Below, piece after piece: positions 17,935 to 59,386 of a DNA stretch of 64,000 bases. The first letter of the stretch is position 1; each line of letters starts with the position of its first letter. Origin of the DNA: Alphaproteobacteria bacterium (GTDB lineage: Bacteria; Pseudomonadota; Alphaproteobacteria; Micavibrionales; Micavibrionaceae); assembly GCA_016757515.1 (NCBI GenBank), contig JAERIN010000003.1:1-64000 (forward strand), given 5' to 3'. The position numbers and the translations under genes are program-made. The notes below the pieces were generated by a model, which worked only from the letters and a program-made list of their open reading frames with translations, did no database searches and was not told the origin of the DNA.

Positions 17935-19116
17935 GTGCGCCTGGGCTTGTTCCTCATTCTGCTCCTCCTGCCCCTGCCGACCCTGGCCGGGGATAGGGAG
18001 CCCACGCCCGATGACCTGAAGTGGGGCCACTGGATGATGGCGTACCACGCCCGCAAGGATGTGGGGAGCGTGCCGGACTTTCTGGCGTATCTGGACCAAG
18101 GCACCATATGGGAATGGGAGAAGAATGACGACAGCGCCCACGACGCAACCATCACGCCCCGGCCCGGCTACACCTCCTGTCGCTACGCCATGGTCATGGG
18201 CTTCTTGGCCCCCATCTTCGCGCAGAACCCGGACAAGGTGGGGGGTTGGCTCATTGATGTCCTCTCCGAGGACACAAAGCGCGCAGCGGCTCTGGCTCTC
18301 GTGGCGGCGGGAATAGAGGACAAGGCCCCGCCGTCCTACGCGGCGCTCATGGCCGAGGCCAAGGCCGACGCGCCCTCTTTGGACGTCCCCGCCCTGCGCG
18401 CCTGCGACCTGGACATGTACTGGGGCGCCACCTTTGCCAGCGGGGATGCGCGGTATGTGGACAGGATCTTGGACGTCCTGGACCCCGCCTCGCCCCGGAC
18501 GGGTAACGACCTCTACGACATGGTGATGCGGCGGTCGGCGCAGTGGTCCTTGGGGTCCAACATGCGCTATGCCGTTGTGGAGCGGGCCGTGGCCCAGCGG
18601 CGGGAGGCGGCCACGGGGGACCTCCGCCGGGCCCTGGACGAGGTGTGGGCCGCGTACGAGAAGAACAAGGCCGCCGCCCGCCTGCCCGTCCACGACGGGG
18701 ACTTCTCGGCCCTCCTGGCCATTGTGGACGCGAGAGAGATAGCCAAGGCCGTGGAGGCCCCCTCCTACGCGGGGCTGGGGATAAGGCCCCTCAAGACGGC
18801 CCGGCGAGGGGACGTGGTGACGGCCCACCTGATCACCTCGGGCATGGGCCTGGACGACAGATTCTCTGCCGATGTGACCTATAGTGTCCGGCTGCTCTAT
18901 CCGGACGGACGGGTCTATGGGGAGTTCAAGGACATTGAGGCCACGCGGGGAGGACCGATTGTGCGGCGCTTTGACGCCTGGTCCGCCAGAGGACACTTAG
19001 ACATAGAGTTTGTGCCCGACGACCCCCTGGGCACCTACACGGCGGAGGTGATCGTGCGGGACAACGTCTCGGGCAAGGCCCTGACTCTGACGAATGCGAT
19101 AGATCTGGTGGAATAG
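17935..19116 (+). CDS. exported protein of unknown function
   Basis: A 393-residue protein with a clear Sec signal peptide (GTG start, then LGLFLILLLLPLPTLAG, likely cleaved near residue 19). The mature part is rich in Asp, Trp and Tyr, with helical repeats in the middle and a C-terminal beta-rich portion (about 280-393) that reads like an immunoglobulin-like domain: AHLITSGMGLDDRFSADVTY, LLYPDGRVYGEF, PLGTYTAEVIVRDNVSGKALTL. I do not recognise a family. Its own signal peptide and its distance from lolD (40 nt) suggest independent expression or the end of the guaA-lolD unit. Confidence 0.65.
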   Translation: MRLGLFLILLLLPLPTLAGDREPTPDDLKWGHWMMAYHARKDVGSVPDFLAYLDQGTIWEWEKNDDSAHDATITPRPGYTSCRYAMVMGFLAPIFAQNPDKVGGWLIDVLSEDTKRAAALALVAAGIEDKAPPSYAALMAEAKADAPSLDVPALRACDLDMYWGATFASGDARYVDRILDVLDPASPRTGNDLYDMVMRRSAQWSLGSNMRYAVVERAVAQRREAATGDLRRALDEVWAAYEKNKAAARLPVHDGDFSALLAIVDAREIAKAVEAPSYAGLGIRPLKTARRGDVVTAHLITSGMGLDDRFSADVTYSVRLLYPDGRVYGEFKDIEATRGGPIVRRFDAWSARGHLDIEFVPDDPLGTYTAEVIVRDNVSGKALTLTNAIDLVE

Positions 19117-19162
19117 CCGACTGGGGTACCCCCGCCCCCGGCCATGGTGTACAACGCAGGGC

Positions 19163-19198
19163 ATGACCCAGGACCTACAGACCGCCATTGACGCCGCG
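19163..19198 (+). pseudogene. relic of the original dapD 5' end
   Basis: ATG 19163 opens MTQDLQTAIDAA, which is the normal start of an alphaproteobacterial DapD, then loses resemblance at about 19199 and stops at TAA 19232-19234. The intact dapD 1 kb downstream repeats this segment as [13 protein letters not shown] at 20283 onward. Over the 27 nt that align, 21 are identical. The reading is that a cassette carrying the SDH protease gene entered here, separating the native start from the gene. Confidence 0.75.
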
Positions 19199-19214
19199 CG
19201 AGGAAGACTAACTC

Positions 19215-20204
19215 TTATCTCCCAACCGGGATAATGTCGGCAGTTTTTCGCGTCCTTTTATCTCCGCTAGCCTGCGCAATATGCGCATCGTCTCCTGGTC
19301 CTTTTTCCTCTCGAACTCCTCCCTCTTCTTGATAAGACTCGGACTTATGAGATACATCATGACAATTTCCCCCTTTCTCTGCTTCTAGGCCATATATTTT
19401 TCTAATTACAGTCTCTCCTGGATATGTTAAGCACTCCTCGTATACTTTAGCGATGCACTCAATCTCTCTTATTGGTTTTTTCACATTTCTAAATATCTCT
19501 AGCGCCTCCCCATAATCTATGACGAAGCCATGATCGGGGTATCCGCCTACCAACATAAGAAGAGACTCCTCTTTTTTCTTTAAGTTTCCTCTTCCCGACT
19601 TCGCCAATCTGTCTCCGTATGCGTAAGCAATATTTATAGCTCTCTGTGTTTCACCAAGGCGAACAGGGTTAATCTGTGACATTATCGGAGCAACAAACTG
19701 TATTGCCATTATAGACGCTACATCCGCAGCCATTTTCGTTGATATACCTGCACCGTTTGTTAGTTCCATAACCATATCTCTAAAAAATGACTCAACTCTC
19801 TCTCTCAAGAAAAGGATAGATTCTGGTATGTTGAGACCAGAACCGAACCTGGCAATCTCGTCCTTGTCCTTCAACTGCACGTCAAGCGGTCCAAACTCCG
19901 CCATTTCCTCCATCATAATTTCATCCGAACCAATGGCCAAAAAGGTTCCCGCACTCTTGCAATACCCATACACGTATAGGATAACCTTTTTATACCGATT
20001 CTGCAACATCCTCGCGATCTTAAAGGCAGCGTCTGGGTCTCCCCCCTGCGTACATAAGGCCAACAGTACAGTCTTAGCCCTTGGTCCGTCAGTGATTTTT
20101 GCCATCTCATGGGCTCCCCCTCGGAAAATGGGCCCGCTATAGATGATTATGTCCGCCTCCAGTTTTTTTGCTAAAGCCTGGATTGCCGTGTCTGCTTCTT
20201 CCAT
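19215..20204 (-). CDS. SDH-type serine protease (ClpP/SppA fold), horizontally acquired
   Basis: A 329-residue protein of the serine dehydrogenase proteinase family (PF01972). The core is LLALCTQGGDPDAAFKIARML, then YVYGYCKSAGTFLAIGSDEI, in which the Ser of KSAGT is the expected nucleophile, followed by EFGPLDVQL. No signal peptide or membrane segment is evident, so it is probably cytoplasmic. It is strongly AT-rich compared with both neighbours, uses AGA, ATA and TTT codons freely, and has a GGAGGT ribosome site before its ATG. It lies between a dapD relic and dapD, divergent from dapD across 48 nt. A role in defence or stress is possible, but only because of the accessory setting. Confidence 0.85.
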   Translation of the reverse strand: MEEADTAIQALAKKLEADIIIYSGPIFRGGAHEMAKITDGPRAKTVLLALCTQGGDPDAAFKIARMLQNRYKKVILYVYGYCKSAGTFLAIGSDEIMMEEMAEFGPLDVQLKDKDEIARFGSGLNIPESILFLRERVESFFRDMVMELTNGAGISTKMAADVASIMAIQFVAPIMSQINPVRLGETQRAINIAYAYGDRLAKSGRGNLKKKEESLLMLVGGYPDHGFVIDYGEALEIFRNVKKPIREIECIAKVYEECLTYPGETVIRKIYGLEAEKGGNCHDVSHKSESYQEEGGVREEKGPGDDAHIAQASGDKRTRKTADIIPVGR

Positions 20205-39277: not shown

Positions 39278-40132
39278 TCAAATCTTGGCAAACCAGGCGG
39301 CATCCACCTGTACCCTCTCCACAACGCCCAGGCCGCGTTCTTTTAACAGGTCGCACAGGGTGTCGCCGTCTATCAAGTCTATAAAAGGCGCGGCCCGCGT
39401 GGCCTCCCTACGCGCCTCAGCGGTAAAACTGCCCGTAGTGATGAAGAGTCCTTTATCCGCGCGACCTATCATCGCACCCCGAAACCCCCGCACCTGTTCC
39501 GGTGTTATGCTCCCTTGGTAACGCTTGCACTGGAAGACGATAGGGAAGGACACAAGCCCCATGCGCAGGATGCCCACGCCGTCAATGCCGCCGTCCCCGC
39601 TCTTGCCTGTCACATTGACGTCAATGAACCCGCCCTCGCGCAGCAGGCGTTGAGCCAGGCGCTCAAAGGCGTCCGGGGCCATGTCACGCAGAACGCGCAG
39701 CAGGCCATCCCTCCAATCATCTTCCTGGGGTTGTGCGTCAAGTATCTCTTTTTGCCCCTTCCGTTCTGGCGCGAATTTCTTGTTTTTGTTTTTATTGTCT
39801 TCTTTGTTCGCCCTCTTTATATTATTTATTATCTTTTCTTCATCTCCGTCCAGTGTTTTCTGTCCCTTTTCTAGCAAGACCCACAGTCCGCGCGAGGGGT
39901 TGTCTGCATATCCCCCCTTCTTGAGGTTAGTCCTGGCCCACGCGCTGCGGTAGGCCAACTTTGTTTGTGTGCCATTCGGCATTAACTCGGCCTGCAAGAC
40001 CTCAGAATAGCCCTCCAATTCGACAATCTTTTCGTTTATCTCTCCGATGGTCCCGGACCCGCCAAGCTCCTTCAAGGCCTTTATGGTCGGCCATATCAGC
40101 GCTTCATCACACGGAACCGCATCCTGCTCCAT
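39278..40132 (-). CDS. mrr: Mrr-like type IV restriction endonuclease
   Basis: A 284-residue protein with an N-terminal Mrr winged-helix domain (about 10-88: LIWPTIKALKELGGSGTIGE and the end of domain GGYADNPSRGLWVLLEKG) and a C-terminal Mrr catalytic domain (PD-(D/E)XK fold: FERLAQRLLREGGF, then KSGDGGIDG and VFQCKRYQG with the active-site Gln-x-Lys at about 201-203). The linker (about 93-138) is Lys/Asn-rich and AT-rich DNA. The family cuts foreign methylated DNA. The ATG at 40132 overlaps the ilvB stop (TGATG), so the gene is translationally coupled to ilvB. GC content is well below the neighbours. Confidence 0.88.
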   Translation of the reverse strand: MEQDAVPCDEALIWPTIKALKELGGSGTIGEINEKIVELEGYSEVLQAELMPNGTQTKLAYRSAWARTNLKKGGYADNPSRGLWVLLEKGQKTLDGDEEKIINNIKRANKEDNKNKNKKFAPERKGQKEILDAQPQEDDWRDGLLRVLRDMAPDAFERLAQRLLREGGFIDVNVTGKSGDGGIDGVGILRMGLVSFPIVFQCKRYQGSITPEQVRGFRGAMIGRADKGLFITTGSFTAEARREATRAAPFIDLIDGDTLCDLLKERGLGVVERVQVDAAWFAKI

Positions 40133-41871
40133 CACACCAACCCCTTATCAAACATCGCCGCGTCGGCGGCGAGGATCATCTCGTTGTGCGCCTTGCCGGA
40201 CGGGATCATGGGGAAGCAGTTTTCCTTCTGGTCCACGCACACGTCCACGATGGTCACGCGGTCTGTTTTGAGCATCTCGGTGATGACGCCATCCAGCTCC
40301 GCCGGCGTCTCGGCCCGCAGGCCCACGCCGCCGTACGCCTCGGCCAGCTTCACGAAGTCCGGCAGGCTCTCGGTATAGCTCTCTGAGTACCGCTCGCCGT
40401 GGAGCAGCTCTTGCCACTGGCGCACCATGCCCATCCACTGGTTGTTCAGGATGAAGATCTTAACGGGCAGGCGGTACTGCACCGCCGTGGACATCTCCTG
40501 TATGTTCATAAGGATGGAGGCCTCGCCCGCCACGTCGATCACGAGCGCGCCGGGGTGCGCCATCTGCGTGCCGATGGCGGCGGGCAGGCCGTAGCCCATG
40601 GTGCCCAGGCCGCCGGAGGTCATCCACCGGTTCGGCTGCTCAAAGGGCAAGAACTGCGCGGCCCACATCTGGTGCTGGCCCACCTCGGTCGTAATGAACA
40701 CGTCGTCGCGGCCCTTCAGGGCCTCCCGCAGGCGCTCCAGGGCGTACTGCGGCTTGATGATGGTGTCCGAGGGACGGTAGGCCAGGCAGTCCTTCGCCCG
40801 CCAGGCCTCTATCTCCGCCCACCACGGGGCGAGGTTCGGCGCGGCGCGGCCCCCCCAGGCCGCCACCAGGGCCTCCAGCGCACTCCCGGCGTCCGCCACG
40901 ATGGGCAGGTCTACGTGGACATTCTTGTTGATGGACGAGGGGTCTATATCAATGTGGATCTTGCGCGAGCCGGGGGAGAACGCGTCCACCCGCCCCGTCA
41001 CCCGGTCGTCAAACCGCGCGCCCACGGCAATCATCAGGTCGCACCCGTACATGGCCTTGTTGGCCTCATACGTCCCGTGCATCCCCAGCATCCCCAGCCA
41101 CGCCCGCCCGCTGGCCGGGTATGCCCCCAGGCCCATGAGGGTGCTTGTCACCGGGAAGCCCGTCTTGCCCGCCAGGGCGCACAGGGCGGCGGACGCCCCC
41201 GGCCCGGCGTTGATGATCCCGCCCCCGGTGTAGAGCACGGGCCGCCGCGCCTCCGCCATCATCGCCACGGCCTGCTCTATGGCCGCCGGGTCTGGCTCCG
41301 TGCGCGGACGGTAAGACCGGCGGGGCGTGTAGTCCTTCGGCCCCATGTACGGCGCGTGGGCGAACTGCACGTCCTTCGGGATGTCCACCACCACCGGGCC
41401 GGGCCGCCCCGCCTTGGCCAGATAAAACGCCTCGTGGATGGTCTCGGCCAGGCGCCCTGGGTCCCGCGCGAGGGCCCCGTGCTTTGTGCAGGCGCGGGTG
41501 ATGCCCGTGGTGTCGGCCTCTTGGAACGCGTCAGTGCCGATGAGGAAGCTGGGCACCTGCCCCGTGAGGCACACGAGCGGTATGGAGTCCATCATCGCGT
41601 CCGCCAGGCCCGTGACCGCGTTCGTCGCGCCCGGCCCAGAAGTCACCAGGGCGACGCCCACCTTGCCCGAGGAACGGGCGTAGCCCTCCGCCGCGTGCAG
41701 GGCCCCTCCCTCCTGCCGCACCAAGACGTGGCGGATCTTGTCCTTCCTGTGGAACAGCTCATCATAAATGGGCAGGACCGCCCCGCCCGGATAGCCGAAC
41801 ACGACCTCCACACCCTGATCGATCAGGGCCTGGACCACCACCTGCGCGCCGGTCTTGGGCGTGTGCGCCAT
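40132..41871 (-). CDS. ilvB: acetolactate synthase, large subunit
   Basis: A 579-residue thiamine-diphosphate enzyme for branched-chain amino acid synthesis. The catalytic Glu lies in RQEGGALHAAEGYARSSG, the Rossmann middle domain includes VGARFDDRVTG, and the C-terminal domain has GYGLPAAIGTQMAHPGALVIDVAGEAS and LNNQWMGMVRQWQELLHG. The reading frame is complete, but its last 19 residues lie in the right copy of a 58-bp repeat that flanks mrr. The regulatory subunit gene ilvN, usually next to it, is not in the window. Confidence 0.95.
   Translation of the reverse strand: MAHTPKTGAQVVVQALIDQGVEVVFGYPGGAVLPIYDELFHRKDKIRHVLVRQEGGALHAAEGYARSSGKVGVALVTSGPGATNAVTGLADAMMDSIPLVCLTGQVPSFLIGTDAFQEADTTGITRACTKHGALARDPGRLAETIHEAFYLAKAGRPGPVVVDIPKDVQFAHAPYMGPKDYTPRRSYRPRTEPDPAAIEQAVAMMAEARRPVLYTGGGIINAGPGASAALCALAGKTGFPVTSTLMGLGAYPASGRAWLGMLGMHGTYEANKAMYGCDLMIAVGARFDDRVTGRVDAFSPGSRKIHIDIDPSSINKNVHVDLPIVADAGSALEALVAAWGGRAAPNLAPWWAEIEAWRAKDCLAYRPSDTIIKPQYALERLREALKGRDDVFITTEVGQHQMWAAQFLPFEQPNRWMTSGGLGTMGYGLPAAIGTQMAHPGALVIDVAGEASILMNIQEMSTAVQYRLPVKIFILNNQWMGMVRQWQELLHGERYSESYTESLPDFVKLAEAYGGVGLRAETPAELDGVITEMLKTDRVTIVDVCVDQKENCFPMIPSGKAHNEMILAADAAMFDKGLV
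40134..40191 (+). repeat. right copy of the 58-bp direct repeat: current ilvB 3' end
   Basis: Matches 39212-39269 with three mismatches. As coding sequence of ilvB it ends in DKGLV and TGA, while the other copy reads DKSLV and TAG. One difference is synonymous (third base of the AAD-to-A Ala codon), one gives Ser/Gly. This pattern fits a replacement terminus brought by the inserted cassette. Confidence 0.85.
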
Positions 41872-47108: not shown

Positions 47109-49691
47109 TCAGGCCGCCTCTCTTTCTGTAAGGAGGCTGTCCATGCGGGCCCGCCAGTCGTCCTCCATCACCATCTCAAAACTGTAGCACGGGCCCTGGG
47201 GCGTATCTATCTCCATGGTGCCCACGGGCGCGGCACCCGCGCTTTGGGTCAAGAGGTCAAAGAGCGCGCGCTTGTATGCTGTATCGGGATTTTCCAACTG
47301 ATTGCCCTTGGTCTCCAACACCACAACGCGCCCGCCGTGCAGGCACACCAGAAAATCGGGGTACACCTTGTCTTTTTTCCAGCCTTGCAGAGCATAGGCC
47401 CCCGTGCTGCGCTCGGCCATCTTGTGCCACCATGTCACGGCCTCATCTTTGTTTGCCAGATACATGGCCAGTTTTCGCTCCAGGCCGTTTACATCGGCCT
47501 CATACACGGCCCCATAGAGCGTGTTTTGGGGTAAATCGCCGTCTTCGCGGCGGATTTTGGGGTCATCTGGCCGCGCGCGTATTTCTATTTCCTGCAAAAG
47601 TTTAAAGTTCAAGTGCCCATAGGGGGCCGTCGTAAGGTGAAAACGCAGCGTGCCCCGGGCCAGTTTTTCCCGAAAAATGGCCTCGGCCCGTTCATGCACC
47701 ACCGCCTTGATCTTGCCCTTCATATCGTTCAGCAGGTCAAGGCGCATGGCGTAAAGCTCGCCCTCGCTCTTGCCCTCGGCCCGCAGGCGGGCCAGCGCCT
47801 CCCCCCAAATACGCGCGGCCTGCCACGGGTTGGGCACAATGTCCGAAAGCGGAGCGCACAGGCCCGCCACATCCACCGCGCCGCCCTCCAGCGCCACAGA
47901 TACAGGGGCGCTTTCATCCCAAAGCACCCCTTGCCGGTCTTTGTCCCGCGTAAAGGTAAGGCTCTTTGTGCGCTCCACAAGGCCGCCAGCCAAAAAAGGC
48001 ACGGGGTCATAGGTCAGGTCGCTCCACGGCACGGCGGCCAGAATATCGTGGCCATACTCCACGGCCCGCCAGCCACCCGTACCATCGGCGTGGAGCACAC
48101 GGGGCAGAAATATCTCCAGCCCCTTAAAGCGCGGGTTGCGGCCCAGCTTGCGCTTCGGGGCCTGCCCCGCTTGCCCGTCCGCGCCGCTGCTATCCGCCTG
48201 CACAAACGCGCCCAGGTCGGCCATGCCCTCGCCCTCCAGGCCCTTTTTCACGGCGTCTATCGCATCGCCCACTTTTTGGTTGTGGCAGAACACATAACAG
48301 GCGTTCAGGGCCTCGCACCCAGTGGCCCGCGCATGGGGCTGGCGCAGCACGCGGCCCACCATCTGCGTCATGGCCGTGCCCGCCGTGGTATTGTCCAAAA
48401 GGGCCAGGACATAGGCAAAGGGGCAATCCCACCCCTCCTGCAGCGCGGACTTGGTAATCACATACCGCACGGGGCACAGCGGGCTTAGCAAATCCGTATC
48501 GCGCAGGCCGTCATCCTCGGCGGACTTTATCCGTATCTCCTCGGGCCGCGCACACAGGCGCTCAATCAAATACGCCTTGGCATCCTCCGCGTGCACGCGC
48601 TTGCCGTCCCTTTGGTCCTTGCCCGTGCGCTCCACCCGCACCACCATGATGGGGCGGATATAGCGGCCCTCGGCGGCCTCCACCTCACGCGCGGCCGCCT
48701 CCAAATCCGCCAGCTTCCCATGCGCGCGGTCCAGCGTGCCCTGCCAATCGCCCTTGTTCAGCGCACTGATATGGATGGGCAGCTTGATCATCTGCGCGTC
48801 CTTCAAATCCGTGCCCAGCACATCCACCAGGATATTGCTCACCCGCGCCTTCACATTCGGCGTGGCGGTCAGCTCCAGCACAAAGGACGGGTTAAAGCCG
48901 TTCAGCGCCTCGCGCGTGTTCTCCGAATAGGCCTTGTGCCCCTCGTCAATCACCACCACGGGGCGCACCATCTTCAGCACATTCACCAGGCTTTGCTTCA
49001 CCGACACATTCGGGATGGCCCCGGCATCGGCCAAATCGTGGCGCTCCAAATCCCCGTGCGCCTGCAGCAGGGCGTTGTTTTCCAAATAATCATCCACGGG
49101 CGGGAAAAAGCTGCGATACCGCCCCGCATCGCGGAAAATACGCAAAAACTCCTTACTCTTATTGCGGTTTGTGGCCGCCAGGCGCACCAGCATCACGCAC
49201 AGGTAATTGTCCACATCCGCGCGGCACAGCGCGTCATCCTTGTACACAATCTTGACCCGCCCGCCCGACGCGCGTTCCAGCACCTGCCGGTACGGGTGCG
49301 TGCGATCGCGCAGAGCCTTATCCGTTTGGTCAAATATCTGGCATGAGGGCATGACCCACAGCACAAGCCCCACCTGCCGCCGCAGGAAGTCCGTCTGCAC
49401 CCGCCCCACGCACTCGGCGGCCAGCAGCGTCTTGCCCCCGCCCGTGGGCACCTTCAGGCACACATGCGGTATAGACCGCCCCGCCGCATCGCGCCGCTCC
49501 ACATACGGCGGCACGATCAGCGGCCCGTCCCTGCCCGCCTGCACGCGGGGCAGCACCCCCTTAACCTTCGGGTCGTCCCACGCCTCCCGCGCCATGTACT
49601 TCTCTGGCACGGCCTCCCGCGCGCGGGCCAGCGCGGCCAGGTACCCCTCAAACCGCGTGATGACCCGCCCCTGATACTCCTTAAGCTCCAT
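47109..49691 (-). CDS. res: type III restriction enzyme, Res subunit
   Basis: An 860-residue superfamily 2 translocase plus nuclease. Walker A is VPTGGGKTLLAAE at residues 81-93, DEAD-like VIDEGHKAYS at about 245, helicase motif LTATPNVKARV, motif VI region TQMVGRVLRQPHARATG, and the PD-(D/E)XK endonuclease YPDFLVCLHGGRVVVLETKG at about 775-795. ATG 49691 (MELKEYQGRV) overlaps the end of mod by 11 nt. It cuts unmodified DNA when complexed with Mod. Sequence is complete with no break. Confidence 0.9.
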   Translation of the reverse strand: MELKEYQGRVITRFEGYLAALARAREAVPEKYMAREAWDDPKVKGVLPRVQAGRDGPLIVPPYVERRDAAGRSIPHVCLKVPTGGGKTLLAAECVGRVQTDFLRRQVGLVLWVMPSCQIFDQTDKALRDRTHPYRQVLERASGGRVKIVYKDDALCRADVDNYLCVMLVRLAATNRNKSKEFLRIFRDAGRYRSFFPPVDDYLENNALLQAHGDLERHDLADAGAIPNVSVKQSLVNVLKMVRPVVVIDEGHKAYSENTREALNGFNPSFVLELTATPNVKARVSNILVDVLGTDLKDAQMIKLPIHISALNKGDWQGTLDRAHGKLADLEAAAREVEAAEGRYIRPIMVVRVERTGKDQRDGKRVHAEDAKAYLIERLCARPEEIRIKSAEDDGLRDTDLLSPLCPVRYVITKSALQEGWDCPFAYVLALLDNTTAGTAMTQMVGRVLRQPHARATGCEALNACYVFCHNQKVGDAIDAVKKGLEGEGMADLGAFVQADSSGADGQAGQAPKRKLGRNPRFKGLEIFLPRVLHADGTGGWRAVEYGHDILAAVPWSDLTYDPVPFLAGGLVERTKSLTFTRDKDRQGVLWDESAPVSVALEGGAVDVAGLCAPLSDIVPNPWQAARIWGEALARLRAEGKSEGELYAMRLDLLNDMKGKIKAVVHERAEAIFREKLARGTLRFHLTTAPYGHLNFKLLQEIEIRARPDDPKIRREDGDLPQNTLYGAVYEADVNGLERKLAMYLANKDEAVTWWHKMAERSTGAYALQGWKKDKVYPDFLVCLHGGRVVVLETKGNQLENPDTAYKRALFDLLTQSAGAAPVGTMEIDTPQGPCYSFEMVMEDDWRARMDSLLTEREAA

Positions 49692-51429
49692 CGCCCCCCT
49701 CCATCCGCCGGTGCAGGGCATAGGGCAGCTGCGCAAAGGTGATCCCCAGCGGGGTCAGCGCGTCCTGCCCCATAAACTTGTGTGTGGCAAAGACCAGCGC
49801 GCCCTTGCCCGCCTCCTTCGCCGCCGCGCCAATCCGCTCCGCCAAAGGCATGGACAGCGCACTATCGCCAGAGCGTAGGAAGTCCAGATCGGGGCGATAG
49901 ATAAGGTGTAGGCGCTGCGTGGCCGTCTCCCCGATAAAATAGTCCTGGCCCCCCGCCCCCGGCGGCGCGGATAGTGTCGCGCCCGTGGCCGTGTGGAACA
50001 CATAGGCGCTAAGCTCCGCATAGCTGGGCAGGTTTTGCCCTTTAAGCAGATTGTCCACATCCATCGCCGCGCCAAGTTCGCAAAAGGTGAAGGTGCCGCC
50101 CAGGCCCGCTTGCAAGGCCGCGTCCTTGGCCCCTGGCACGCCGCGTATTACGCGCCGCACACGCTCGGCCGTGATGGTGTCGGCATAGTCCTCACACTCC
50201 ACCAAGATAAACTTGCGATTGCCCCCGTCCTCCTTATTCAGGGCAAGCACCGCATGGGCCGTGGTGCCAGAGCCCGCGAAGGAGTCAAGGATGATGTCAT
50301 CTTTTTCGGTGGCGAACTCCAAAATAGACTGTATAACATATTCATCTTTTGGATGAGAAAATACATCTCCATTCATCAAAGAGCGCAATCTTTTAGTCGA
50401 AGAGCGCCCATCTTGATAGAAAACAGAATAGGGGACTTCTTCTTCTCTGTCTTTTAGATAAGATTTTATGCAAGGTACATAATTTTCATCTAATCCAAAA
50501 TGCACCCTATTGTTATCTATCGCGTCTTGCATTGTTTCTGGCTTAGAGAACATCCAGCCCCTTGATGGAACCTTGCAAGGTTTATTGGTTTTGGGGTGCA
50601 AGACTTCATATGTCGGCCCACCGCCGCCAGGCCAGGATATGTTATCAGGAAAATATATCCCTACATCATCCATACAAGAGAAATGCTTATGTCTTTTTGC
50701 AGGATTAGAATCATCCATATCCGAAAACCATTTTCTTAATTCTTTTGTGGCCCCCTCGCAGTCCTCTCCATATTTTCTCTTTAATTGTTTTTCTTTTTTA
50801 TAAATATCCTCAATGCCCTTTTTTCTGTTTCTCCATTGAACTTTTTGGTCCTTCATTCTCATTATATTTTTTGCATAGCAAAGAAGATACTCGTGTGATA
50901 CAGAGACCAATGTTGAGTCATTTTTTCGTCCAGATGCCCAGATCATTTGTGCTATGAAGTTCTCTTCCCCAAACACCTCATCCATAATCATGCGCAGGTG
51001 GTGCACCTCGTTATCATCTATACTCACAAATATCACGCCGTCATCGGCCAATAATTCCCGCAATAATTGTAAACGCGGCCACATCATGCACAGCCATTTG
51101 TCGTGGCGCTCTAAGTCCTCTTTGTCCACGGGGTTTGCGGAGTCTTTCAGCCACTCGCGGATAAGCGGCGCGTTGACGGCGTCGTTATAGCACCAGCCCT
51201 CGTTGCCCGTATTGTAGGGCGGGTCAATATAAATGCACTTCACGCGGCCCGCATAGCGGGGGAGCAGAGCCTTTAGCGCGTGCAGGTTATCCCCGTGGAT
51301 AATCAGGTTTTCGTCCAGGTGCGGTGCGGGGCTGGCGGACTTGGCCGCGTTCACCTCCAGCGTGCGGTAGGGCACGGCCAGGTGGTGGGCGTAGACAAAG
51401 GGCTTTCCCTTGAACTCCAGTGTGGGCAT
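49681..51429 (-). CDS. mod: type III DNA-methyltransferase, Mod subunit
   Basis: A 582-residue beta-class N6-adenine methyltransferase. The catalytic DPPYNTG lies at about residues 69-75 and the SAM motif DSFAGSGTTAHAV at about 378-390, the order of the beta class. The middle of the gene (about 50300-50960), between these motifs, is much more AT-rich than the rest and probably encodes the target-recognition domain. It overlaps res by 11 nt. A GC-rich palindrome lies 41 nt upstream of the start. Confidence 0.9.
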   Translation of the reverse strand: MPTLEFKGKPFVYAHHLAVPYRTLEVNAAKSASPAPHLDENLIIHGDNLHALKALLPRYAGRVKCIYIDPPYNTGNEGWCYNDAVNAPLIREWLKDSANPVDKEDLERHDKWLCMMWPRLQLLRELLADDGVIFVSIDDNEVHHLRMIMDEVFGEENFIAQMIWASGRKNDSTLVSVSHEYLLCYAKNIMRMKDQKVQWRNRKKGIEDIYKKEKQLKRKYGEDCEGATKELRKWFSDMDDSNPAKRHKHFSCMDDVGIYFPDNISWPGGGGPTYEVLHPKTNKPCKVPSRGWMFSKPETMQDAIDNNRVHFGLDENYVPCIKSYLKDREEEVPYSVFYQDGRSSTKRLRSLMNGDVFSHPKDEYVIQSILEFATEKDDIILDSFAGSGTTAHAVLALNKEDGGNRKFILVECEDYADTITAERVRRVIRGVPGAKDAALQAGLGGTFTFCELGAAMDVDNLLKGQNLPSYAELSAYVFHTATGATLSAPPGAGGQDYFIGETATQRLHLIYRPDLDFLRSGDSALSMPLAERIGAAAKEAGKGALVFATHKFMGQDALTPLGITFAQLPYALHRRMEGGDGA

Positions 51430-51501: not shown

Positions 51502-52059
51502 CTACCCCTCCACCCCCTCCAGGTACCCCTCCACCATCTCTTGCCACTGGGCGACCTGGGCGGGGTCGGGCTCCACGCAAGGCAGGGGCGGGGGCTCGCC
51601 GGTGGCGGCCTCGTAGCCCTCCATGTCGTCCAGGTCCAGGGCGCGGACTTTCTCGGCGGTGTCCAGGAAGAAGGCCACGAAGGGGTCGCGGATGGGGGCC
51701 GCCATGCGCTCGGCCAGGGCGAAATCCAGGCCCTTTGCGGCGAAGGCCTGGGCCCAGGCGGTGTGGAGGGTGAGCATATTGCGCAGGAAGGCCGCGCGCG
51801 TGCCGTGCTTTTGCCACGAGGCCACGGCGGCGGCCAGGGCGATGCCGCGCAGCTCCATCTCCAAAAAAATAACTAGCATCGTGACGGTGCGCATGGTGTA
51901 GGAATAACGCTCGTCCGTGGCGCGGTAGGTGTGCTTTGGGCAGGTGTCCACGAGCCGCCGCACCTCGGCCTGGTCGTCCCGCGCCTCGGCCTCCAGCGTG
52001 GCGATGACGCGCTGTTTGGGCGTCAGGGCCTCGTACACCATGGGCTTGATTGTCTTCAT
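51502..52059 (-). CDS. phage-type hypothetical protein
   Basis: A 185-residue helical protein. TRDDQAEVRRLVDTCPKHTYRATDERY and the MAAPIRDPFVAFFLDTAEKV-like middle are present (split as given). No family recognised. Overlaps the next gene by 4 nt (ATGA), so it belongs to the island operon. Confidence 0.55.
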   Translation of the reverse strand: MKTIKPMVYEALTPKQRVIATLEAEARDDQAEVRRLVDTCPKHTYRATDERYSYTMRTVTMLVIFLEMELRGIALAAAVASWQKHGTRAAFLRNMLTLHTAWAQAFAAKGLDFALAERMAAPIRDPFVAFFLDTAEKVRALDLDDMEGYEAATGEPPPLPCVEPDPAQVAQWQEMVEGYLEGVEG

Positions 52060-52508
52060 GCCTTGGCCCCCTTCATCGCCCGCTCCAGCGCCTCCAGCCG
52101 CTCCCGTAAACTCTCCACCTCCTCCACCCGCGCCGTGGTGCCGAGAGCCTGCACCAGCTGCGCCGCCACATCCGGCGCGACCTCCCCGGCCAGCGCAGCC
52201 TCCACCAAAGCCCGGGCCTGCCCCGTGAGGCTATTGGCCCCTTGCGTATCCACCGCCACGCACGGCGCAACACTCTTGAGGCCCGGCACCACCCGCTCCA
52301 GGCACAGCCGCAGCGCCGTGACATCCCCGACCTTGGCCAGTTCCACCGCCTTGCGCGCAATCCCCTCCGCCTCCCCCTCCAGCAGCGCCTGCGCCGCCAG
52401 CGTGGCCTTGTTGCGCGCGCCTTTGGGCTTGCCCTTTGGATTGCCGGATTGGCCGGGCCGGAAGCGCCCGTCCGCCTGTATCGCGCCTGTATTTTCAGGT
52501 TTTGTCAT
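52056..52508 (-). CDS. DUF5681 domain-containing protein
   Basis: A 150-residue protein. The N-terminal GRFRPGQSGNPKGKPKGARN (residues 14-33) is the DUF5681 signature found in phage and island proteins near packaging or terminase-like genes. The rest is helical. It overlaps its neighbours on both sides. Confidence 0.75.
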   Translation of the reverse strand: MTKPENTGAIQADGRFRPGQSGNPKGKPKGARNKATLAAQALLEGEAEGIARKAVELAKVGDVTALRLCLERVVPGLKSVAPCVAVDTQGANSLTGQARALVEAALAGEVAPDVAAQLVQALGTTARVEEVESLRERLEALERAMKGAKA

Positions 52509-53106
52509 GGGTGTACCTCCCTCTCACATCCTCCAGCGCCGCAGCAAAGGCGGCGTCCAGGGTGGGGTATTCAGGGGCCTCGCGCATGACGGCCACGCGC
52601 TCGGCCAGGGCGTCCAGGGCAATCAGGGCACCCTCGGCCCGCAGGCGCGCGCAGTGGTGTCTATCCAGCGCCTCCAGGGGGATTGCGGGGGGTACACCGT
52701 GGGCGGTCAAAGCCGCGCGGGCCCGCGATAGGCGCTCTTGGCACTCTTCCTCCGTGTAGGTCCCCACCGGCGGGTCGTTGTCCGCAAGCCAGTCCCACGC
52801 GGTGCGGATATGGGCCGTTGCGACCAAAACCTCCCCGGACACAAACGCCACGGCCCTGTCCCCCACAATCGCGGCCACATGCCCCGCATAGCGGTGGGGC
52901 CAGGAGGTGGGCCCTGCCCCGTGCGCGTGGCGCGCCTTCAGGGCCGCGATGATCTCCGGCTTGCGGGCGCGGAGGGTGGGCAGGTGGCGCTCCAGGGCCT
53001 CTTTGGGCCCCTCGGCGTGCAAGCGGGCGTCCGGTGTCACGGACAGCGCCACGCCCTGCCCCGTGGCCGCGCGGATGACCTCCAGGACGGGCGCGGGTGC
53101 GGTCAT
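52495..53106 (-). CDS. hypothetical protein with a TubC-like N-terminal docking segment
   Basis: A 203-residue protein. Residues about 10-60 (ATGQGVALSVTPDARL, then LPTLRARKPEIIAALKA) resemble the TubC_N docking fold. The remainder (AWDWLADNDPPVGTYTEEEC and later helices) has no recognised match. Overlaps the DUF3631 gene by 4 nt and the DUF5681 gene by 14 nt. Confidence 0.5.
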   Translation of the reverse strand: MTAPAPVLEVIRAATGQGVALSVTPDARLHAEGPKEALERHLPTLRARKPEIIAALKARHAHGAGPTSWPHRYAGHVAAIVGDRAVAFVSGEVLVATAHIRTAWDWLADNDPPVGTYTEEECQERLSRARAALTAHGVPPAIPLEALDRHHCARLRAEGALIALDALAERVAVMREAPEYPTLDAAFAAALEDVRGRYTHDKT

Positions 53107-54602
53107 AGCGTCACCCCCACTCTATACCCTTGCCCTGTCCACCCCCCTGCGTCCGCTACACCGCTATATCCATTATTTTCCAATGGCTTAGGCGTAGCGC
53201 AAAGGGTCAGGGAGGGAGCGGGGTTTGGGTCGCGCGCTACGCCGCAATCCTTTGTTTTGTCTGGGGTTTTGTCCCCCTGTAGCGGTGTAGCGGCCCCTTC
53301 CCCCGCCTCCGGGGCGCAGGGGATAAACCGGGCGAAGGCGTCCGCGCAGTCGGCCAGGAGGTAGCCCTTCACCACGCCCCCGCTCGGCAGGCGCATGTTT
53401 TTGGGCGCAATCCCGTACTCGCCCAGGCGCTTGGCAATCTGGCGCTGCGATATGGGCTTGCCCCGGTTGTAGCCCGCCCAGGGGGCCATATCGTCCGCGC
53501 ACAGGTGCTCCAGGAGCGCGGCGCTGGGCAGGCGGTCCGTCCCCTTTTCTGCAAAGGCGTCGCGCAGGTCGGCAAGCAATTCCCCAGAAGCCGAGGGGGA
53601 GTCCTGCATCCCGCCGCACAGGGCCAGGGCGGCCTTGCGGGCGGTATCCCCCCAATGGCCCCCGGCGTGGTCGGCGATGGCCAGGAGGGCCTCCCAGTTG
53701 TCCTGGGCGCGGTCGTCCAGGGCGTCAGGCAGGGCCGGGCGACCAGCGCCTATGGCGGAGCCATTGTCCTGGGCCCAGCGGGCGAGTTGCGCCGCTAGGT
53801 GGGCGAAGAGCGCGGGGTCCGCGTGGCGCAGGCGCTCCACCCGTTCCGTTTTCAGTTTCCGCCGCAAAGACAGCACGATAGCCCGGCTCATCAGGGTGTC
53901 GGGCAGGTGCCCTATCCCGCACAGCGCCTTGGCCCCCCAGGTGGTGAAGTGCGTGGGCGTGTGGTCGTCCCCCACATTGCGGATGACAAAGGCCGTATCG
54001 CGCGTGTGGCCGGAGTTCAAAATGCCCCGCGCCTCCTCGTTGTCGCGCAGGAAGGTTTCGGCCTCGTCTATCAGAAGTGTAGGCCCGTGGGCCTCCACCA
54101 CGCGAAAAATGGCGGAAGGGGAGATGTTGGACGCGGGCAGGGCCCGGCGCACCAGCTTGCCTATGAAGGCCAAAAGCGTGGACTTCCCGCACCCCTTTTC
54201 CGGCGCGGTGATGACGGCCAGCGGGGCGACCTGCGCGTGGTCTATGACCCAGGTGAAGGCGATCCACAGCGTCGCCGCCACGGCCACGGGGGCATCGCAC
54301 ACCACATAGCGCTTCAGGGACACGTGTATATCATCCAGCAGCGCTGCGCCGCCCACGGGCTCGCCCCAGGACTCTATGTCCGCGCACAGCGCTTTGGGCC
54401 CCGCCGTGACCTTGTCCTGCGTGCGCCTCGCGGCCACCTCCGCGTCCAGGGTGGCCTTGCGCACGCCCAGTTTATCGGCCTCCGCCTCCCGCACGCGGTC
54501 GTACTCCAGGGGTGCCAGCGCGGCCAGCCGCACCACAGCCGCGTCCAGGGACTCGGGGACAGGTTCGGCCCTGTCTACAGTGTCGGCAACGGGGTGTGTC
54601 AT
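53103..54602 (-). CDS. DUF3631 domain ATPase
   Basis: A 499-residue P-loop protein with Walker A APEKGCGKSTLLAFIG at about residue 130-145 and a Walker B-like TLLIDEAETFL. The downstream DUF3631 domain (DTRD... ILNSGHTRDTAFVIRN) is typical of islands and phages in alphaproteobacteria, where it pairs with Toprim proteins as a replication module. ATG 54602 overlaps the Toprim gene stop by 4 nt. A longer frame upstream is an extension without family similarity. Confidence 0.8.
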   Translation of the reverse strand: MTHPVADTVDRAEPVPESLDAAVVRLAALAPLEYDRVREAEADKLGVRKATLDAEVAARRTQDKVTAGPKALCADIESWGEPVGGAALLDDIHVSLKRYVVCDAPVAVAATLWIAFTWVIDHAQVAPLAVITAPEKGCGKSTLLAFIGKLVRRALPASNISPSAIFRVVEAHGPTLLIDEAETFLRDNEEARGILNSGHTRDTAFVIRNVGDDHTPTHFTTWGAKALCGIGHLPDTLMSRAIVLSLRRKLKTERVERLRHADPALFAHLAAQLARWAQDNGSAIGAGRPALPDALDDRAQDNWEALLAIADHAGGHWGDTARKAALALCGGMQDSPSASGELLADLRDAFAEKGTDRLPSAALLEHLCADDMAPWAGYNRGKPISQRQIAKRLGEYGIAPKNMRLPSGGVVKGYLLADCADAFARFIPCAPEAGEGAATPLQGDKTPDKTKDCGVARDPNPAPSLTLCATPKPLENNGYSGVADAGGWTGQGYRVGVTL

Positions 54603-55468
54603 GCGGCGGCCCTCCCGTCCTTGGCCAGGGCCAGCGCCCAGTCGTTGAAGTCGTTGTATGGGGCAGGCGGGAAGCACAGGGCCGCGCCTATGGCAGCGGC
54701 GGCTTCGGCGGCCTTCACGCGCCCGATATTGCGCTCCAGGTGCCGGTCGTCGTCCCCGCATAGGGTGATGGGCCGGGCGGGGTACTTGGCCCGCAAAGCC
54801 AGCGCCACGGGCAGGAGATTGCCCGCGTTGCGCGCCACGGCCACGCAATGCCCCGTGGAGGCCCGCAGGCTTGCCCCGGTGCTATACCCCTCACAGATCA
54901 GGAGCGCCCCGCCCTCGCGCCCAAGGACCCCAGGGATGGGAAAGTACAGGCCCGTGACCCGCCCGCCGGGCAGGGTGCGCTTGGTGCCGTCATCCGCAAC
55001 GCGCTCCAGGTTCCACAGCGCCCCGCTTGCATCATAAAGGGGCATCATCGCCCGCCCGTCGGGGGCCCGGCGCAGGCCATAGCTCTTGACCCCCTTGCGC
55101 CGCAAATGGGCGTGACAAAACAGCGGCGGCGCGGCCTGCCATAGCCGCACGGCCTCCCCCTGGGCCCTGGCATGACGCGCGGCCTCCTCCGCCTCCCGCG
55201 CGGCCTTATCAGCGGCTATTTGCACGGCAAAGGCTTTGCGCTGGGCGGGGGTAAAGTTTGCACCACTGCCTGCGCACCACTTCTCGGATAGGCCGCTTTT
55301 CCAGTGCCCAAAAGCCCCGGCCAAGGGATCGGGGAACAGGACATACCAGCCATTGCGCGTGCCCGCCCGGTCGCCCTTCACATGGCAGCGGTGGATGCGG
55401 CCGTCGGCCACGGGCTCGCCCTTCAGGACAAAACCCGCAGCGCGCAGGGTGTGCGCGAAGTTAGGCAT
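54599..55468 (-). CDS. Toprim-domain primase-like protein
   Basis: A 289-residue protein. Its N-terminus resembles the primase zinc-less DUF7146-type domain (HRCHVKGDRAGTRNGWYVLF). The C-terminal Toprim segment has LLICEGYSTGASLRASTGHCVAVARN with the catalytic Glu and ITLCGDDDRH with the DxD. It probably primes island replication together with the DUF3631 ATPase, with which it overlaps. Confidence 0.75.
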   Translation of the reverse strand: MPNFAHTLRAAGFVLKGEPVADGRIHRCHVKGDRAGTRNGWYVLFPDPLAGAFGHWKSGLSEKWCAGSGANFTPAQRKAFAVQIAADKAAREAEEAARHARAQGEAVRLWQAAPPLFCHAHLRRKGVKSYGLRRAPDGRAMMPLYDASGALWNLERVADDGTKRTLPGGRVTGLYFPIPGVLGREGGALLICEGYSTGASLRASTGHCVAVARNAGNLLPVALALRAKYPARPITLCGDDDRHLERNIGRVKAAEAAAAIGAALCFPPAPYNDFNDWALALAKDGRAAA

Positions 55469-55664
55469 GGCTTTGGTTCTCCCCCCTTGCGGCGGCGATA
55501 CGCTGGGCCAGCCAGGCGTTCACCTCGGCCTCCAGCCACCCCACGGCGCGGGGCCCTAAGGCCACTTGCGCGGGGAATTGGCCCCTGGCCATGCGGGCGT
55601 AGAGGGTGGAGCGCGAGAGGCCCGTGCGGGCCTTGACGGCGGGAAGGCGCAGGATGGTGTGCAT
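55461..55664 (-). CDS. alpA: AlpA family excisionase/regulator
   Basis: A 67-residue helix-turn-helix protein: ILRLPAVKARTGLSRSTLYARMARGQFP, then VALGPRAVGWLEAEVNAWL. This is the compact AlpA/phage excisionase fold. The ATG at 55664 has AAAGGA upstream. It probably activates or excises the island. Overlaps the Toprim gene by 8 nt. Confidence 0.85.
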   Translation of the reverse strand: MHTILRLPAVKARTGLSRSTLYARMARGQFPAQVALGPRAVGWLEAEVNAWLAQRIAAARGENQSHA

Positions 55665-55902
55665 TGCTCTTGTCCTTTCTGGGCCGGTTTCGGATGACCC
55701 AGGAGCCAGGATAGGTGGGCGCTTTTTTGAGGAAAGAGCGATTTGCGCCCAGGGCGCGCCGCGCAGAGCGCTGATAAACAATGGTTTTTAACACGGACGC
55801 AGCGCGCCCGCGCAGCGCCCAGGCCACCCGCGCAACGGGGCCAAAAGCCCAGAAATCCGGGGTTTTGGGGGGGACAAAACCTGGGCGCGTTTTTTGGCCC
55901 AA
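55665..55902 (-). other. intergenic stretch between alpA and the unknown module
   Basis: No gene recognised. The minus-strand side would hold the promoter of the alpA operon. No clear hairpin or promoter consensus was identified by eye. Confidence 0.3.
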
Positions 55903-56685
55903 CTATTTTCGGCTCCGCAGGATTTTTCGGATGGTCTCTGCCTTCAGCACGCCCTTCCATGGGGCCATCGCGGCCAGTTGTCCGGCGTACCAAGGCTGGG
56001 ACATGCCGGGCTTACGTCTGCGCAAGGCGAGGTAGTCCTGGCGCACTCGGTCGTGCCTGGCTTGTGTTTCTGCTGCCCGCTTTTCCTGCTGCGACAGAAT
56101 AGAGGACGGGCGCGCATCGCCCGTAGCCGCGTCTATCATGCGCTGCACATGGGCCGTGTCCAGGGCCAGGGTCCCGTCGGCCAGGGTTACAAGGTCGGCC
56201 AAGGGCACGCGCTCCGCGCCTATCAAAAGGCCCAGGTCATCGCCAAAGGCCAGGCAGAGCATTCTTGATTGCTTGGCCCCCATGGCCGCGCCGATTTGCA
56301 TGAGGCGCTCTGGCTCCCGCCACGTGCCCGTAAACCGCGCGCCCGTGGCCTGCGCCACAAAGCGCCCTATGGCCTCCGGGCTCACCTGCCACTGCGCCAC
56401 CTCATCGGGGCGGATGGGAAAGCGCACGCCACAATAGGTGGTCTCGCACCGCACATGCGCGTGCGCCGAGGCCGCGTCCAGCAGGGGCATGGTGCAGCGC
56501 TCCTCACACCCCGGACACTCCGCGCTTGTGGCACGCGGGCCCTTGGCCAGAACCTCGCACGCCTTCAGCGCCGCCACCGCCTCGGCGGGCCACTGGGCCA
56601 CCTCCCGCGCTGTAAAAAGGGCCGCGTCCCCGCGCAGGTACGCCACGCGGTCGCACACATCGGCAAACACATCGCCCGGCGTCAT
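55903..56685 (-). CDS. unknown protein, second gene of the island module (Cys-rich segment)
   Basis: A 260-residue protein. A Cys cluster (CPGCEERCTMPLL with a later CETTYC; about residues 56-85) looks like a zinc ribbon. The middle has WQVSPEAIGRFVAQATGARFTGTWREPERLMQIG. The C-terminus is basic and helical (QEKRAAETQARHDRVRQDYLAL and LKAETIRKILRSRK), fitting nucleic acid binding. It overlaps the upstream gene by 4 nt. I do not recognise a named family. Confidence 0.6.
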   Translation of the reverse strand: MTPGDVFADVCDRVAYLRGDAALFTAREVAQWPAEAVAALKACEVLAKGPRATSAECPGCEERCTMPLLDAASAHAHVRCETTYCGVRFPIRPDEVAQWQVSPEAIGRFVAQATGARFTGTWREPERLMQIGAAMGAKQSRMLCLAFGDDLGLLIGAERVPLADLVTLADGTLALDTAHVQRMIDAATGDARPSSILSQQEKRAAETQARHDRVRQDYLALRRRKPGMSQPWYAGQLAAMAPWKGVLKAETIRKILRSRK

Positions 56686-57887
56686 GCCTCATCCTTCGGC
56701 AGGCGTGGCTCAATCCCCGAATCCGCCAACATGGCGCGCAGTTTTAGGCCCAGATCATCATAGGGCAGATTGCAAGAGTTGGGGTGGCCCAGGCGGATGG
56801 GGATGGTCTTTTCCTTCCCGTCCCCCGTGGGCACATAGGCCGTCATCTCCGCATAGGTGATGGGATAGTGACGGCGCGGGAAGGCTTTCGCGGACTGGTC
56901 CAAAAGGTCATAGATCGCCTGTGGGCCCTTGCCACTGTCAGCTTCCAGCATAATGCGCTCTCCGCCCCTGGCTTTGATCTTTCCTTTGACCTTGGCCGAT
57001 AGGCGCAGCTTGTGCAGCACCACGCGCTCCACGCCCTCGCACGGCGCAAAGACAAAATCCCGGTTGCCCAGGGGGGTCAGGTCATACACGCGCCCGTCCT
57101 TTGGGTCCGGGGGCAATTCGGCAAGGCCCAGGATGACCCTGGCAAACATATCTTGCAGGGGCTCTATGGCCTTTGTGTTGCCGCTATAGTTCAGGTCCAG
57201 CTTCCCCTGGGCCTGGTCGTACAAAAACACCACCTCAAAGGCGGGGGTGTGCGGGCGGCGGTCAAGTTGCCCATTCTGCCACTCTATAATTTGGTTTGCG
57301 TAGTCCTCCGGGTAGGCGAAGAAATAGTCCAGATTGCCGCGCCGGAACGCCTCCACCTTGCAATTTGCGCCTCGCCCCTCGGCCTTGTGGAAGTAATGGC
57401 CGATTTGCCGTGCGAATTCGCCCCTATGCGGCTCATGCACCCGCGCCGGACTGTGGTCCATGTTCTGGCGCTTGCGCCAGTATGACAAGCTATCGGCATG
57501 GAAAAACTTCGTGGCTCCGCGCCACAATTCGCGATGGTCCAGATAGACCGTCATAGCCCTGTTCTGATGGCTATCCAGGGCAGATAGGGCCGCCACAATG
57601 TCATCGCAGGCCTTTGGATTTTCGCGCATTTGATAGCGGGCCTCATCCACAATGGCGATAAAGCCCTTTGGGCATCCCATATCAAAGATTTCTTGAAAGG
57701 CTGCGCCCGTTTTTTTGACCTCATCATCCGGCAAGGCCTTCCAAGCCTCAAAGAGGGGGTCTATTTTCCGGGGCTTCAGGGCGTCAAAGTCAAAGTCCAG
57801 GAGCAGGTCGCGCGCGTGGAAATAGCGCTTCAAAAGGGCGTTGTCCGTTTGGCGGAAAAAACTGGGGGCGGTGTAGTGGCGGGTCAT
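56682..57887 (-). CDS. unknown protein, first gene of the island module
   Basis: A 401-residue protein. N-terminal TRHYTAPSFFRQTDNALLKRYFHARDLLLDFDFDALKPRKIDPLFEAW (split here as TRHYTAPSFFRQTDNALL and KRYFHARDLL). Other blocks are YRQ-like HRELWRGATKFFHADSL, DYFFAYPEDYANQ, HTPAFEVVFLYDQAQGKLDLNY, and the C-terminal LGHPNSCNLPYDDLGLKLRAML followed by GIEPRLP. No catalytic signature is obvious. Homologs with this layout are familiar to me from islands, but I cannot name a function. It sits between the integrase (52 nt away) and the Cys-rich partner. Confidence 0.6.
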   Translation of the reverse strand: MTRHYTAPSFFRQTDNALLKRYFHARDLLLDFDFDALKPRKIDPLFEAWKALPDDEVKKTGAAFQEIFDMGCPKGFIAIVDEARYQMRENPKACDDIVAALSALDSHQNRAMTVYLDHRELWRGATKFFHADSLSYWRKRQNMDHSPARVHEPHRGEFARQIGHYFHKAEGRGANCKVEAFRRGNLDYFFAYPEDYANQIIEWQNGQLDRRPHTPAFEVVFLYDQAQGKLDLNYSGNTKAIEPLQDMFARVILGLAELPPDPKDGRVYDLTPLGNRDFVFAPCEGVERVVLHKLRLSAKVKGKIKARGGERIMLEADSGKGPQAIYDLLDQSAKAFPRRHYPITYAEMTAYVPTGDGKEKTIPIRLGHPNSCNLPYDDLGLKLRAMLADSGIEPRLPKDEA

Positions 57888-57939: not shown

Positions 57940-59136
57940 TTATAACACACCACCACCGCACCGAAGTCCAGCCTTTTCCAAGTATTGTCCCCACCAATCC
58001 ATCATCTCCCGCCGCTCGGAAAGGTATTGCGCGTGGTTGTACGCGGCGCGGACGCCGTCGCGCTCCCCGTGGGCCAGTTGCCGCTCAATAACATCGGCGC
58101 GAAAGCCGTGCTCGTTCAAAATGGTGGAGGCCGTGCCCCGCACGCCGTGGACTGTGGCGCGGCTATGATACCCCATGCGATACAGCGCCCCGATAAGAGT
58201 GTTGTTGCTCAAGGGCTTTGCGTGCGTCCACACGCTGGGGAAGAGGAGGGGCCCGCCGCCGGACAGGGCGCGTATGTCGGCCAGCACGGCCAGGGCCTGG
58301 GGGGACAGGGGCACGATATGCTCCTCGTCCATTTTCATGCGGGCCGCCGGGATGCGCCACTGGGCCTTGTCCAGGTCAATCTCCGCCCAGCGGGCGTGCA
58401 ACAACTCCGAAGTCCGCACGAAGGTCAGGAGCATGAGTTTCCAGGCCAGCTTGGTGATAGGCTCGCCCTGGTAGTCCTCCAGACACGCCAGGAAGGCGGG
58501 CAGCTCGGCCTCGGCAAAGCGGGAGCGGTTTTGCACCTTGCGCGTCTTGAACACGCCCTTCAGGTCGGCGGCCACATTGCGCTCCGCCCGGCCCGTGGCG
58601 ATGGCGTAGGCGAATATCTGCGTGGCGTACTGGCGCGTGCGGCGCAGGAGGTCCAGGGCCCCGCGCCCCTCCATCTTGCGCAGCGTGGCCAGGAGCACGG
58701 GGGCGGTGATTTGGGCGATGGGCACCTTGTCCAGGTCGGGCAGGAGGTCCAGCTCCATCCGGCGCATGACGGCGGCGGCGTAGGGGGCATCCCACCGCTC
58801 GGCCCTTTGTGCGTGCCACTCGCGGGCGATGACGCCGAAGGTGTTCGCGTTCGCGGTCCGGCGCTCGGCCTTGGCCCGTTGCTTCTCCGCCGAGGGGTCC
58901 AGGCCCTGGGCCAGCGCGCGCTTGGCCGCCTCCCGCCGCTCCCGCGCGTCGGCCAGGGTGATGGTGGGAAACGCGCCGATGGATAGAGTCTTTTCCCGCC
59001 CGTCCACGCGATATTTCATCTGCCACAACTTGCCCCCGTTCGGACGACACAAGAGGTAGAGCCCCCCGCCGTCAAAGAGTTTGTACTGCTTTGCGCGGGC
59101 CTGGGCGTTTTTGATTTGGGTGTGGGTCAGGGGCAT
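57940..59136 (-). CDS. int: site-specific tyrosine integrase (DUF4102/P4 type)
   Basis: A 398-residue integrase. Residues 1-95 form the DUF4102 arm-binding domain (KLFDGGGLYLL, KYRVDGREKTLSIG), then the SAM-like core-binding domain and the catalytic domain: Arg in TFVRTSELLHARW (about 240), HGVRGTAST with the His-x-x-Arg at about 330-335, LAHGERDG and the nucleophile Tyr in AYNHAQYLSERR (about 365). All catalytic residues are present, so it is likely active. It lies next to the tRNA-Leu 3' end. Confidence 0.92.
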   Translation of the reverse strand: MPLTHTQIKNAQARAKQYKLFDGGGLYLLCRPNGGKLWQMKYRVDGREKTLSIGAFPTITLADARERREAAKRALAQGLDPSAEKQRAKAERRTANANTFGVIAREWHAQRAERWDAPYAAAVMRRMELDLLPDLDKVPIAQITAPVLLATLRKMEGRGALDLLRRTRQYATQIFAYAIATGRAERNVAADLKGVFKTRKVQNRSRFAEAELPAFLACLEDYQGEPITKLAWKLMLLTFVRTSELLHARWAEIDLDKAQWRIPAARMKMDEEHIVPLSPQALAVLADIRALSGGGPLLFPSVWTHAKPLSNNTLIGALYRMGYHSRATVHGVRGTASTILNEHGFRADVIERQLAHGERDGVRAAYNHAQYLSERREMMDWWGQYLEKAGLRCGGGVL

Positions 59137-59300: not shown

Positions 59301-59386
59301 TGGTGCCCAGGAGAGGACTCGAACCTCCACGGGGTTGCCCCCACAGGCACCTGAAGCCTGCGCGTCTACCATTCCGCCACCTGGGC
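59301..59386 (-). tRNA. tRNA-Leu (CAG anticodon)
   Basis: An 86-nt gene with encoded CCA. Acceptor GCCCAGG pairs with CCTGGGC, D-arm GGCGGAATGGTAGACGC, anticodon stem CAGGC/GCCTG around loop TTCAGGT (anticodon CAG at 59351-59353), long variable arm GGGGGCAACCCC-type, and T-arm GGAGGTTCGAGTCCTCTC. The 3' end (59301-59317) faces the island, which therefore reconstitutes it on integration. Confidence 0.95.

Follow-up and report, generated by a model that had tools for sequence, protein, structure and literature searches.

Temperate elements have repressor and early regions of the S24/LexA-like type or of the type that combines an HTH protein with ImmA/IrrE. In known systems, LexA-like S24 and M78 repressors respond to DNA damage, and immunity genes are often located in the repressor regions of such elements. 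The gene pair considered here, called P1 and P2, is found directly beside such repressors and ahead of the early genes, but it falls outside all S24/LexA-like and HTH plus ImmA/IrrE families and comes as a two-subunit or fused unit. A second described system is that of the Gram-negative PICI/P4-like satellites. The window, by which we mean the whole stretch of 64,000 nucleotides analysed, shares with them the order integrase, AlpA, primase, but it differs in having P1-P2 between the integrase and AlpA, in its type III restriction cargo and in that no helper phage is known.

At the protein level, P1 of the window matches the phage protein family phrog_37634, but this family carries no function name and does not cover P2. 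In CENP-N, a helical domain at the N-terminus precedes an antiparallel sheet of six strands that is placed between helices (PMC5777823), a layout that the P1 model shares. The yeast CENP-N/L orthologs have been reported to be similar to RdgC and TBP (PMC4080450). Unlike RdgC and CENP-N, P1 has an extra partner, P2, and a mobile-element context, and to RdgC (PF04381) it has no sequence or profile similarity; the global TM-scores of the fold matches are below 0.36.

The gene pair and its island

P1 (56682..57887, minus strand, 401 aa) and P2 (55903..56685, minus strand, 260 aa) share a 4-nt stop/start overlap in the ORF check, just as an earlier sequence-only reading of the window had described them. 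P1 keeps its full length across 40 aligned homologs, and the window P1 is recovered at E 1.8e-38 by a profile built from distant relatives alone; the P1 groups are homologous to each other in profile comparison (100%, E 3.6e-43). For P2, the window-type group is homologous to the other groups of this broad family with a probability of 97.5% (E 7.8e-12, residues 13-208). The kept length of P1, its distant-profile match and the match between the P2 subgroups indicate that both genes are coding.

The pair is previously unnamed and absent from Pfam and NCBIfam. Neither window P1 nor window P2 has a match in Pfam, NCBIfam or PADLOC, in line with the earlier description of the module as unrecognised, and no account of it was found among the literature results listed for the terms tried. 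In PHROGs, phrog_37634 is matched by window P1 at E 9e-12 and by 38 of the 40 aligned P1 proteins (best 1e-90). P2 had been called Cys-rich, and it indeed has 8 Cys in total, with a cluster C57-x2-C60-x3-C64...C80 near the N-terminus that is conserved in the seven closest P2 relatives, window P2 counted among them. Its C-terminus is basic and helical, with a pI of 11.5 for the last 66 residues (195-260). The sequence-only reading could name no catalytic signature, and none was found; the P1 alignment has no conserved catalytic residues, its near-invariant positions (L, G, P, Y, W, F, R and similar) being scattered.

That the pair shares its island with an integrase, AlpA and a type III Mod/Res pair, as had been proposed, agrees with the profile matches. 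A P4-type tyrosine integrase (57940..59136, minus strand; Pfam Arm-DNA-bind_3, Phage_int_M and Phage_integrase) lies 52 nt upstream of P1 on the same strand, and just outside it ARAGORN places a tRNA-Leu(CAG) gene (59301..59386, minus strand), which is the likely integration target of the island. Downstream of P2, and all on the minus strand, are an AlpA-type excisionase/regulator (55461..55781; Pfam Phage_AlpA E 7e-19), a Toprim_3 primase-like protein (54599..55468; Pfam Toprim_3; phrog_2249 DNA primase E 2e-57), a DUF3631 protein (53103..54602; Pfam E 6e-49) and a DUF5681 protein (52056..52508; Pfam E 2e-14). The type III restriction-modification genes Mod (49681..51429, minus strand; PADLOC MTase_III E 2e-180) and Res (47109..49736, minus strand; PADLOC REase_III E 3e-237) are carried as cargo. 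With an integrase, AlpA and a primase at a tRNA gene, the island has the gene set of a PICI/P4-like integrative satellite. The 3' end of the tRNA gene is not repeated at 13 nt or more within the window, which was the range of the att search, the best repeat being 12 nt and at chance level; the far end of the island could be beyond the window.

From the integrase through a 185-aa gene at 51502, all genes have the same direction and are separated by short gaps or overlap, which makes a single operon plausible. The gap before AlpA is 121 nt long and contains an imperfect palindrome (55841..55868; 13-nt arms, 2-nt centre) that came from a repeat search and is a possible operator.

Some other features of the window were also observed. 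The G+C content is 0.454 at 50001-51000, inside the type III Mod gene, compared to ca 0.65 in the adjoining kilobases, as an exchange of the target-recognition part would produce. At 19001-20000 there is a lone dip to 0.475, the surrounding region having ca 0.67. At 39278-40135, directly after an acetolactate synthase large-subunit gene and overlapping it by 4 nt, there is a gene for a Mrr-type (type IV) restriction-like protein, whose identity was assigned by reading alone.

Distribution and gene order

Profile searches find P1 in 41 of 398 sampled Pseudomonadota genomes, with up to 4 copies per genome, in 12 of 385 genomes of the class when a narrower profile is used, and in 5 of 142 genomes of the order. 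A P2-type gene is located directly downstream of P1 in nearly every locus with enough contig. In three genomes (L032, L103 and L104) the two are fused in one intact frame, both halves of which are recognised by the P1 and P2 profiles, and a fourth fusion, L106, is frameshifted. Among annotated phages and plasmids (DNA and protein, tblastn), window P1 matches neither and window P2 matches no phage; with a more typical family member as query, a plasmid copy of P1 was found in Candidatus Tenderia electrophaga. A scan of genome contigs gave one locus only, already found otherwise.

The genome of the window has a second, divergent P1-P2 copy (L007, 118-2236) on a 5.4-kb contig, C61, without clear mobile-element marks. 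At L109 (4084-6469), a DUF3800 protein follows P1 in place of a recognisable P2. The P1 proteins of L006 (6312-7490), whose genome belongs to the same family as the window, and of L071 (830-2008), whose genome is from outside its class, are equal in length and identical in profile score, and in neither locus was an intact P2 frame found after P1. The L071 copy may be contamination, since its genome is listed at 8% contamination.

At least 53 of the 57 P1 loci have mobile-element marks; these loci are not independent of each other, as some sequences among them are related or duplicated. The other four are a plasmid (L035), a locus with a phage-type primase and an excisionase (L028), and two contigs of 3 kb (L033) and 5 kb (L007). 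The commonest layout is a large serine recombinase with DUF2924, then a repressor, P1 and P2 in this order, and then AAA_24, a helicase, an exonuclease and a primase. The repressor near P1 is of the HTH plus M78 peptidase type in 24 of the 57 loci and LexA-like S24 in 11, and in L092-L094 and L095 there is a 4-nt overlap between the S24 gene and P1. No recognised repressor is present between DUF2924 and P1 in the fusion loci, L030 and L101. The recombinase, DUF2924, M78, S24, AAA_24 and helicase families were checked with Pfam on representatives, while the nuclease, DUF669-like and HTH labels were assigned by reading.

The order integrase-P1-P2-AlpA-primase of the window recurs in other islands, where the adjoining restriction systems differ. 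In L078 and L081, close relatives of the window, a tyrosine integrase precedes the pair and P2 is directly followed by an AlpA-like gene, as in the window. Genes of the primase type come next in the window, L078 and L028, and AlpA/excisionase and integrase/primase genes flank the pair in all four of these loci. Another carrier, L021, is an inovirus contig with a replication protein, an RstB-like protein and Zot. P1 and P2 are thus coupled, co-conserved and sometimes fused, and they keep a fixed place in the core of mobile elements, at the junction between the repressor and the early genes.

At L098 (10577-12890), HTH and M78 genes are divergent from P1, and a DinB-type DNA polymerase IV-like gene, identified by reading, comes next. 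Replication-initiator names given by eye to proteins of L005 and L029 were confirmed by neither Pfam nor PHROGs, and they were dropped as evidence together with the name of an L090 protein, given by eye alone.

DUF2924 elements occur in 36 of 40 P1 genomes, compared to 76 of 398 genomes overall (Fisher p 2e-25, a descriptive value only, as the genomes are related). DUF2924 is within 10 kb of P1 in 41 of 63 P1 loci, at a median distance of ca 2 kb, but P1 is within 10 kb at only 41 of 149 DUF2924 loci, which means that it is an optional part of these elements. L135 and L144 belong to the same element class without P1-P2, and they have a CI-like repressor and an unrelated HTH protein (identities by reading) between DUF2924 and AAA_24. 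This suggests that P1-P2 occupies an exchangeable control slot. The slot protein of L135 and L144, beside DUF2924, has 231-242 aa and an HTH-like stretch at its start, and it is matched by neither the P1 nor the P2 profile.

Predicted folds

The AF2 model of P1 (mean pLDDT 88.1, pTM 0.73) has a helical N-terminal domain (1-132), followed by the sheet of six strands between helices and then by a second alpha/beta domain. The top Foldseek matches in the PDB are the CCAN kinetochore chain 7qoo_N, E. coli RdgC and CENP-N, with probabilities of 0.80, 0.97 and 0.91, respectively. A viral library gave an uncharacterised siphovirus protein as first match, and its seven highest-ranking matches include two phage RdgC proteins, with probabilities of 0.84 and 0.80. 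For the RdgC fold, the probability of 0.97 is yet accompanied by an E-value of 4e-3 and TM-scores of 0.26/0.33, and over all the fold matches the E-values are 5e-4 to 8e-2 and the TM-scores 0.21-0.35. The hhalign comparison of P1 with a profile of 25 RdgC sequences gives a probability of 0.2%, and the RdgC Pfam family (PF04381) has no match in 45 P1 proteins. The P1 model thus weakly resembles RdgC and CENP-N, and because of the weak E-values and low TM-scores we treat this likeness as a lead only.

Structure prediction had been proposed as a check on both proteins, and it gave a weak match of this kind for P1 and none in the PDB for P2, whose AF2 model has a pLDDT of 89.1. Profile searches for PDB relatives returned nothing for P1 and one chance-level match for P2 (E 0.96). 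Trans_reg_C is found by Pfam in 2 of 40 P2 proteins (best E 1.5e-6), and some P2 relatives end in winged-helix domains, others in other basic domains. Window P2 itself has no Pfam HTH match and lacks the Trans_reg_C domain of the OmpR/PhoB-type winged-helix regulators.

Possible roles of the pair

The best explanation, which we put forward tentatively, is that P1-P2 could be a two-subunit DNA-binding control module in the core of integrative mobile elements. It is favoured by the position of the pair, its exchange with other regulators and the presumed DNA-binding C-termini, and we infer that the two proteins form a complex, bind DNA and regulate. P2 would read element-specific DNA via an exchangeable basic, helix-turn-helix-type C-terminus, and P1, with its loosely RdgC/CENP-N-like fold, would associate with P2 and form a clamp or a dimer on the DNA. 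Together they would set the timing of the early operon (AlpA, primase and DUF3631 in the window), acting alongside the SOS-type repressor that adjoins them in relatives, or replacing it. Against this explanation, window P2 has no Pfam HTH or PDB fold match, and the RdgC/CENP-N match of P1 combines TM-scores of 0.21-0.35 with no profile-level support; the pair is also an optional part of the DUF2924 elements.

The sequence-only reading had suggested a second anti-phage or satellite function; the satellite part is close to the explanation we favour, whereas the anti-phage part is not supported. In the anti-phage reading, P1-P2 would be an anti-phage or superinfection-immunity module of the element, sensing or blocking incoming phages or competing elements. 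The spread of the pair over unlike elements and the common location of immunity genes in repressor regions fit such a role, as do the restriction systems of nine islands (the window, L078, L080, L005, L030, L090, L103, L104 and L106) and AbiEii in three more (L022, L026 and L100). However, recognised restriction or Abi genes, differing in type, are within ca 10 kb at only 12 of the 57 loci, and the pair does not act like cargo carried beside defence genes. Conserved catalytic residues are absent, the core position is fixed and not variable as in cargo, and PADLOC 2.0.0 has no match for P1, P1 relatives or, for P2, the window member alone. The fixed place and the lack of any defence match make defence unlikely, and since nearly all copies of the pair are located at the control end of a mobile element, it more likely helps run the element than kills phages.

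We consider it about equally improbable that P1 modulates RecA or recombination in the manner of RdgC, with P2 targeting it to element DNA; it would then shield element DNA that is excised or replicating, or damp the cleavage of the element's repressor driven by RecA. The Foldseek matches to E. coli and phage RdgC, the S24 or M78 repressors adjoining P1 and the recombination-type genes downstream are consistent with this, but the TM-scores are low and the RdgC profile and Pfam comparisons negative. It is less probable still that the pair initiates replication of the element or serves in its partition. Primase and helicase genes adjoin the pair, the Candidatus Tenderia copy is on a plasmid, and the folds are possibly DNA-binding; the carriers, however, have unlike replication modes and include primase-bearing satellites as well as the inovirus contig, which encodes Zot and a replication protein of its own, and this variety disfavours an initiator. 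The earlier statement that the two are not a known replication gene pair holds.

Returning to the control module, there is a slim chance that P1 acts in bacteria as a DNA clamp of the RdgC/CENP-N type for which P2 reads the sequence, the two forming a new kind of mobile-element switch tied to the DNA-damage response, where P1-P2 might, for example, control the RecA-dependent inactivation of the neighbouring repressor. If true, one fold would serve both bacterial mobile elements and eukaryotic centromeres.

P1-P2 is common to satellites, serine-recombinase elements, an inovirus contig and a plasmid, occurs in ca one tenth of the sampled Pseudomonadota genomes, and is placed where elements choose between a quiet and an active state. 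Knowing its role would keep such pairs from being called defence by neighbourhood alone, and its function, once known, would explain how a large class of islands that carry defence genes is controlled.
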